Origin: Candidatus Aenigmatarchaeota archaeon | GTDB lineage: Archaea; Aenigmatarchaeota; Aenigmatarchaeia; QMZS01 | Direction: 5' to 3' | Length of the DNA stretch: 64,000 nt | NCBI GenBank assembly: GCA_016932615.1 | Contig: JAFGCN010000027.1 | Span: 1-64,000 of the forward strand | In this document: positions 4,307-4,693 of the stretch, in pieces | Layout of the letters: the number at the start of each line of letters is the position of its first letter | Numbering within the stretch: position 1 is the stretch's first letter | Notes under the pieces: generated by a model | Told to the model about the DNA's origin: nothing | Seen by the model: the letters and a program-made list of their open reading frames with translations, nothing else | Databases searched by the model: none | Made by a program: the position numbers and the translations under genes

Positions 4307-4543
4307 GGGCCTGTAGCTCAGCTGGTAGAGCGCTGCGTTTGCAACGCAGAGGCCGTGGGTGAGCCCTTTTCTTGCGAAGAAAAGGTTTCAATCCCAAAAG
4401 AAAGCAGTTTCCGCTTTGCGGAATAGCACCGTGAATTTAGTGGAACGCCGATAAGGCCTCCGTTAAGTTTACTTTTGGGGTGAAGACCTTTTTAGCCAAG
4501 TTATCCGGAAAAGGGTTTCCACAATCGAATCCCACCGGGTCCA
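4307..4543 (+). tRNA. tRNA-Ala (UGC) interrupted in the T-loop by about 164 nt
   Basis: Bases 4307-4360 supply a complete acceptor 5' strand (GGGCCTG), D-arm, anticodon arm CTGCG-TTTGCAA-CGCAG with anticodon TGC, variable loop and T-stem 5' strand GTGGG plus T54. The rest, TCGAAT, CCCAC, CGGGTCC and A, is at 4525-4543. Joining 4360 to 4525 gives the standard T-loop TTCGAAT and a paired acceptor with two G-U pairs. The 164 nt between (4361-4524) are structured. The ends pair as CCCTTTTC (4364-4371) with GAAAAGGG (4508-4515). A 10-bp helix joins 4391-4400 to 4472-4481, and hairpins form at 4409-4423 and, competing with the end pairing, at 4365-4385. I could not fit a canonical bulge-helix-bulge site. 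It could be an unusual intron or an insertion that kills the gene. Confidence 0.75.
4361..4524 (+). other. Structured intervening sequence in the tRNA T-loop
   Basis: This 164-nt segment splits the tRNA between positions 54 and 55. It has no ORF of note. Its ends are complementary (8 bp), and an inner 10-bp helix and a perfect TTCCGC-TTT-GCGGAA hairpin suggest a folded RNA. CCAC at 4519-4522 can also pair with the exon bases GTGG at 4355-4358, extending the stem across the junction. Confidence 0.6.
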
Positions 4544-4614
4544 TTAGTCTTATTTCATAATCGAACCTGAAGCCCCGAAGATGCTTTGGGTGCCATCCGA
4601 GCTTTAGTGAAGAA

Positions 4615-4639
4615 CGAGCATCCCACCAGGTCCATTAGT
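4615..4639 (+). repeat. Second, degenerate copy of the tRNA-Ala 3' end
   Basis: CGAGCATCCCACCAGGTCCA plus TTAGT repeats CGAATCCCACCGGGTCCA plus TTAGT at 4526-4548, 91 bp downstream. Its CAGGTCC pairs with the acceptor strand GGGCCTG with one wobble fewer than the first copy, but its T-loop has an extra base pair of letters and lacks TTCGA. Such duplications of a tRNA 3' end are typical scars of site-specific integration. Confidence 0.6.
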
Positions 4640-4693
4640 TTTTATATTTCTTCCTCTTACAGTAGGTTTACGTCTAAATTAAAGCTATATTTT

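Follow-up and report, generated by a model that had tools for sequence, protein, structure and literature searches.

A structured insert in the T-loop of an archaeal tRNA-Ala(UGC) gene, most likely an EndA-spliced intron, carries a dispersed mirror-repeat element

Described archaeal introns and intrastrand triplex motifs

Noncanonical archaeal introns with a relaxed bulge-helix-bulge (BHB) site have been described from Thermoproteales, Thaumarchaeota and Nanoarchaeota (PMC4090602), and large-scale intron transposition in Thermoproteales is attributed there to Fujishima et al. 2010. The insert treated here interrupts a tRNA-Ala(UGC) gene in a 64,000-nt stretch of DNA (the window) from an Aenigmatarchaeota genome. 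It resembles the described introns in the BHB at its junctions, and its genome likewise holds several introns per tRNA and similar introns in unrelated tRNAs and at different positions. It differs from them in coming from another phylum and in its length (164 nt, with 219 nt in the sister intron L031); furthermore, its body holds a mirror-repeat hairpin element that is also present outside tRNA genes.

This element has the arrangement of a class II intrastrand triplex motif (Y-R-RH; class III/IV on the opposite strand), with a Y stem, a complementary R stem and a mirror purine stem as third strand, all on one strand of the DNA. As in the BoxC or TMECO elements of E. coli (PMC4666352; Hoyne and Maher), the copies are dispersed and numerous. 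TMECO, however, is G/C-rich with a second loop of 3 nt, whereas the archaeal element is A-rich, possesses a base helix and usually has a longer turn (6-20 nt). Also unlike TMECO, its copies keep to gene and exon boundaries and to tRNA introns, and the third strand covaries with the duplex across many genera. Set against the ITxF definition (stem 6-15 nt, loops 1-6 nt), the Ala copy fits in its stem of ~7 nt and its first loop of 3 nt and exceeds the limit in its second loop of 10 nt, a length that falls within the loop limit of 0-10 nt reported for Hoyne et al. (PMC4666352).

The interrupted tRNA-Ala(UGC) gene and its splice site

Joining 4360 to 4525 gives a perfect T-arm, GTGGG-TTCGAAT-CCCAC, in a tRNA with the anticodon TGC and a G3.U70 pair, as read directly from the sequence (Table 1). 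ARAGORN detects zero tRNAs in the unspliced window and calls a tRNA-Ala(tgc) once 4361-4524 are removed; as in archaeal BHB introns, the junctions restore an intact tRNA. The first-pass annotation had described a tRNA-Ala with its T-loop interrupted after T54 and restored to TTCGAAT by the same joining, and this description is borne out, as are the pairings it gave (4364-4371 with 4508-4515, 4391-4400 with 4472-4481, and the hairpin at 4409-4423) and its view of the insert as long and structured: the predicted fold reaches -62.4 kcal/mol vs -39.4 +/- 3.7 in shuffles (z -6.3) and beats 200 of 200 dinucleotide shuffles.

Table 1. Features of the tRNA-Ala(UGC) locus (window positions; a slash marks the predicted cut)
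Feature	Positions	Strand	Basis
tRNA-Ala(UGC) 5' exon, nucleotides 1-54	4307..4360	+	Rfam RF00005 match; ARAGORN tRNA-Ala(tgc) after excision
BHB 5' half: central-helix strand GTGG 4355-4358, bulge GT/G 4359-4361	4355..4361	+	minimum-energy fold pairs GUGG with CCAC
Intron, 164 nt, between T54 and T55	4361..4524	+	tRNA-defined junction, perfect 4-bp BHB central helix; fold z -6.3
Inner intron helix, 5' strand GAGCCCTTTTC, partner 4508-4518	4361..4371	+	fold
Element strand Y (CCCTTTTCTT), hairpin partner of R1	4364..4373	+	hairpin family of the same genome
Element strand R1 (AAGAAAAGG), complement of Y	4377..4385	+	hairpin family
Element strand R2 (AAAAGAA), mirror of R1, via turn 4386-4395	4396..4402	+	mirror covariation
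Internal hairpin TTCCGC-TTT-GCGGAA, perfect	4409..4423	+	direct reading, fold
Degenerate inverted second element copy (CTTTTGGGG .. CCTTTTT .. GGAAAAGGG), toward the 3' splice site	4472..4515	-	inverted repeat 4380-4403/4469-4492; sister introns L013, L031
Inner intron helix, 3' strand GAAAAGGGTTT	4508..4518	+	fold
BHB 3' half: central-helix strand CCAC 4519-4522, bulge AA/T 4523-4525	4519..4525	+	direct reading, fold
tRNA-Ala(UGC) 3' exon, nucleotides 55-73	4525..4543	+	direct reading, exon search, ARAGORN after excision

A broken tRNA gene (pseudogene), an option considered in the annotation, would also agree with the failure of ARAGORN on the unspliced gene. It is nevertheless regarded as very improbable: both exons are intact, the intron ends in a complement of the T-stem, and a search with the exons found no second tRNA-Ala(UGC) in this genome (G000; 1.26 Mb, rated 97% complete). 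In the relative G037 the tRNA-Ala(tgc) is continuous, and that genome has no match to the element patterns.

A self-splicing ribozyme representing a new intron class, to which the length, stability and structure of the insert would be suited, appears less probable still. At gathering and relaxed thresholds, Rfam returned only tRNA and two weak CRISPR-repeat matches, with no group I/II intron or other ribozyme core in the insert; the intron bodies of the family extend from ~51 to 219 nt and share little apart from the element; a BHB lies at the junctions; and the element also occurs in untranslated regions. Likewise, the embedded guide RNA suggested in the annotation receives no support from Rfam, the intron having no match to box C/D or H/ACA families. 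One sister intron contains TGATGA and CTGA, readable as box C/D.

Downstream of the gene, window positions 4620-4642 resemble 4529-4551 (91% identical over 23 nt), so that a second tRNA-Ala 3' end with the downstream ATTAGT lies 91 nt further on; 4553-4565 is in turn similar to 4517-4529. The copy at 4620-4642 looks like a duplicated 3' half with a T-loop insert of its own, or an integration scar. Recurrent duplication of tRNA 3' ends was discarded as a general pattern, being strong at the Ala locus only.

Where the first-pass annotation could fit no BHB, a 4-bp central helix (4/4 pairs) with correctly placed 3-nt bulges is found exactly at the tRNA-defined junction, with the cuts inside the bulges at the canonical place, and nearly all sister introns are alike. 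The minimum-energy fold of the locus includes this central helix. The inner intron helix comprises 11 bp, its three basal pairs being G.U or A-U, and whether the 5' bulge measures 2 or 3 nt turns on a terminal G.U. This locus lacks the outer exon helix, which gives the site the relaxed hBH form. The intron 3' end is complementary to the host T-stem, as GTGG:CCAC in Ala and GCAG:CTGC in Arg-UCU. Among the 19 tRNAs of the genome solved by one excision, 17 show at least 3.5 of 4 central pairs, a distribution slightly favoured by the selection of the best BHB among the junctions accepted by ARAGORN. Controls on the wrong strand (0/140 tRNAs) and at shifted positions (0/129) yielded nothing, and consequently the tRNA part of the reconstruction is not a matter of chance.

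EndA is represented in the genome by one gene found (L154, G000:C18:45567-45839), of the alpha, single-unit type, with the M. jannaschii enzyme as its nearest match. The enzymes usually associated with relaxed BHB substrates are of the alpha2beta2 type (PMC4090602), and the finding of the alpha type alone is therefore a point against relaxed-BHB splicing. The L154 protein has a long N-terminal extension, acidic and lysine-rich, and the genome is nonetheless full of noncanonical BHB introns. Since the BHB fits the tRNA-defined junction, the insert is most likely an archaeal intron that EndA splices from the only tRNA-Ala(UGC) gene detected in the genome. The pre-tRNA would fold a relaxed BHB at the T-loop, with the T-stem GTGG pairing with CCAC near the intron 3' end; EndA would cut at GT/G and AA/T, and a ligation of the RtcB type would restore the T-loop. 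As a BHB intron the insert belongs, as far as can be read from its letters, to a known kind, and what is new would be the element carried inside it.

The element family and the covariation of its strands

On one strand, the Ala element places Y at the intron start, followed by R1, a 10-nt turn and R2; the intron body holds this one copy and a decayed inverted copy of an element dispersed through the phylum. Searched by itself, the hairpin pattern has 29 sites in the genome vs 2 for the reversed pattern, nearly all of the 29 lying in tRNA genes, in the T-loop (53/54, 54/55, 59/60) or the anticodon loop; in tRNA-Thr(UGU) the element apparently sits in the D-loop. One- and two-excision reconstruction places elements in the introns of at least 22 tRNA genes, several of which carry two, with some two-excision solutions (L031, L038) being ambiguous. 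The introns include subfamilies with fixed starts, TGAAGC and AAAGAC, at differing tRNA positions. In total, the genome contains about 40 element copies. A Y1 transposase (PF01797), as in IS200/IS605-mobilised (REP-like) elements, was discarded as the mobiliser, having no match in the genome despite these copies, and no transposase linked to the element was found.

By pattern searches of 156 genomes of the phylum, the 4A form of the element was detected in 41 and the 3A form in 38, with 0 for a reversed-pattern control in the 156. The copies of relatives lie in tRNA introns, in a 23S rRNA gene, and immediately behind stop codons or ahead of start codons. The 23S rRNA copy (L137, G058:C18) is on the same strand as the rRNA, whose model match of 1,911 positions is spread over 3,031 nt and hence implies much inserted sequence in this gene. 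Viral contigs gave 3 and 22 matches, mostly unrelated or coding; three of these contigs (L221, L222, L223) share an A-rich GGCTACCTTTTCTTTT..GGAAAGAAAAGGTAG(A/G)CCAAAAGAAAACAGGCCCC, whose strands likewise follow the Y-R1-R2 mirror order. In one relative (L274, G002), the tRNA T-loop insert is another tandem hairpin repeat (GGAACTTTTAGAAAAAGTTCC ATCAAAAAAAG), apparently of a different intron family. Contig LH_S4, an Rpo3 neighbour, stops short of any tRNA.

R2 is the mirror image of R1, neither its complement nor a direct repeat. When the hairpin was fixed and R2 left free as 3A or 4A, 4A hairpins were followed by an R2 of 4A in 96 cases, 3A in 4 and 6A in 1 (n=101), and 3A hairpins by 3A in 139, 4A in 1 and 6A in 2 (n=142); the totals were summed from the result tables, and a few of the 3A hits overlap. 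The 3A/4A switch recurs in many genera; genome G011 has 3A and 4A elements that share one turn, GGTCTTTGTAAACCCC. Where the hairpin reads A(m)GA(n)G, the retrieved loci show n as the length of the first R2 run in 106 of 121 cases and m as that of the second run, left free by every search, in 84 of 106. The asymmetric hairpins, in which m and n differ, rule out a direct repeat (mirror 81, direct 4, n=92). One locus set had been collected by a strict 4A/4A search and is biased toward n=p=4; for this reason the mirror test was repeated within the genome of the Ala intron alone, where 52 of 64 run lengths match (permutation maximum 39/64 in 20,000) and the mirror order prevails 25 vs 2 over the direct one, at loci found mostly by hairpin or tRNA searches. 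The element copies being related, none of these counts represents independent events. Pairing of R2 with a downstream complement was also rejected, one lying within 220 nt in only 24 of 140 elements.

We know of no copying process that makes mirror images. The plain reading of the covariation is that R2 contacts the Y:R1 duplex, along which it would lie as a third strand; the pattern fits a three-stranded structure of the known intrastrand triplex arrangement, here in an unreported setting. Shared ancestry could instead explain the hairpin and the A-rich motif if the insert were just another noncanonical BHB intron from a transposed family, with no triple helix formed. Intron transposition between tRNAs is indeed known (PMC4090602), and the TGAAGC and AAAGAC subfamilies do sit at different tRNA positions. 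Nevertheless, the mirror covariation of both A-run lengths, the 3A and 4A forms with one turn in a single genome and the copies outside tRNA genes make this alternative unlikely. The favoured reading, held with moderate confidence, is a noncanonical BHB intron spliced by EndA and carrying a dispersed mirror element, with R2 as third strand, that has spread among tRNA genes. Such spread is proposed because an insert whose 3' end is complementary to the exon would be spliced out harmlessly.

Strand, orientation and copies outside tRNA genes

On the tRNA strand, the triple helix would have to be built from A.A-U and G.G-C triples, those of class II in PMC4666352. As in intrastrand triplex motifs generally, a class II strand faces a pyrimidine-motif class on the opposite strand, and the complement would form U.A-U and C+.G-C triples, the better-known motif. 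Purine-motif triplexes are stated to be unable to form in RNA (PMC4666352), which is a point against a triplex on the tRNA strand; for the Ala intron, moreover, the predicted RNA fold favours a long rod over the Y:R1 hairpin. Base helices with one mismatch show A.C when read along the tRNA strand, hence G.U on the complement, in 41 cases, and G.U on the tRNA strand itself in 5, with about 10.6 (A.C) and 5.3 (G.U) expected from shuffled pairs and with related copies included in the counts. Between the base helix and Y:R1, the element often has an internal loop that reads TC/TC on the tRNA strand and GA/GA on the complement. The mismatches and the loop both indicate that constraint probably acts on the complement, whether as DNA or as RNA. 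The small selfish RNA envisaged in the first-pass annotation is supported in part: a selfish element gains indirect support, since the intron belongs to a dispersed repeat family, while the copies outside RNA genes and the mismatches that are G.U only on the complement argue against a selfish RNA on the pre-tRNA strand.

In the RNA triple helices of MALAT1 and PAN ENE, the strand order is Hoogsteen U-strand, Watson-Crick U-strand, A-strand, and the complement of the element has the same order. Unlike in those RNAs, a role in 3'-end protection is not attributed to it; the A-strand overlaps the ribosome-binding region in leaders, and in tRNA introns the sequence is antisense. In relatives, the leader copies (L140, L163, L167, L175, L179, L194, L195, L204, L205) lie directly upstream of the start codons of uS3, uL2, RFC, Rpo1N, EF-2, eS1, eS6, eL40 and uS12, and the complement A-strand is found 6-8 nt upstream of the start codons of uS3, uL2, eS1, eS6, uS12, EF-2, Rpo1N, RFC, an aIF2-beta-like gene and others, all names having been assigned by reading translations. 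In these leaders the complement is the mRNA strand and the copies overlap the ribosome-binding region, which makes them a candidate regulatory RNA. One copy outside tRNA genes in the genome of the Ala intron (L036, G000:C11:42456) has the leader orientation, 8 nt upstream of an RFC-large-subunit-like gene.

These positions 6-8 nt upstream of translation-gene start codons, the excess of G.U on the complement (41 vs 5) and its GA/GA internal loop are what would be expected if the complement acted as RNA, a U.A-U triple helix in the leader masking the ribosome-binding site of translation genes and tRNA introns serving as a dumping ground in the other orientation. This possibility is given some weight, although it remains rather doubtful, as the copies in the genome of the Ala intron are mostly in tRNA introns in the opposite orientation and the wobble counts include related copies. 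A wider proposal, advanced only tentatively and with somewhat less than even confidence, is that the elements across the phylum form a real three-stranded structure under selection, that one strand acts in the leaders of translation genes, and that the elements spread as BHB introns in tRNA and rRNA genes, with the base helix at exons, stops or starts.

The orientation of the element follows a rule: its base end faces an exon, a stop codon or a start codon. At 34 ORF-boundary contacts, the base end is in contact in 29 and the R2 end in 5; the orientation is identical in all solved tRNA introns, and the degenerate inverted copy of the long introns (Ala, Arg(UCU), L031) faces the 3' splice site. 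The base end sits flush with the sequence that is kept, be it exon, stop codon or start codon.

To our knowledge, genome catalogues of intrastrand triplex motifs go back some 25 years and have given little evidence of selection on the third strand. A third strand that changes together with its duplex in many genera constitutes covariation evidence of this kind, and the natural 3A and 4A variants are ready-made compensatory mutants. For the organism itself, the family explains why standard finders miss most of its tRNAs, and it ties the gain of tRNA introns, in an archaeal phylum that has received little study, to a dispersed element.
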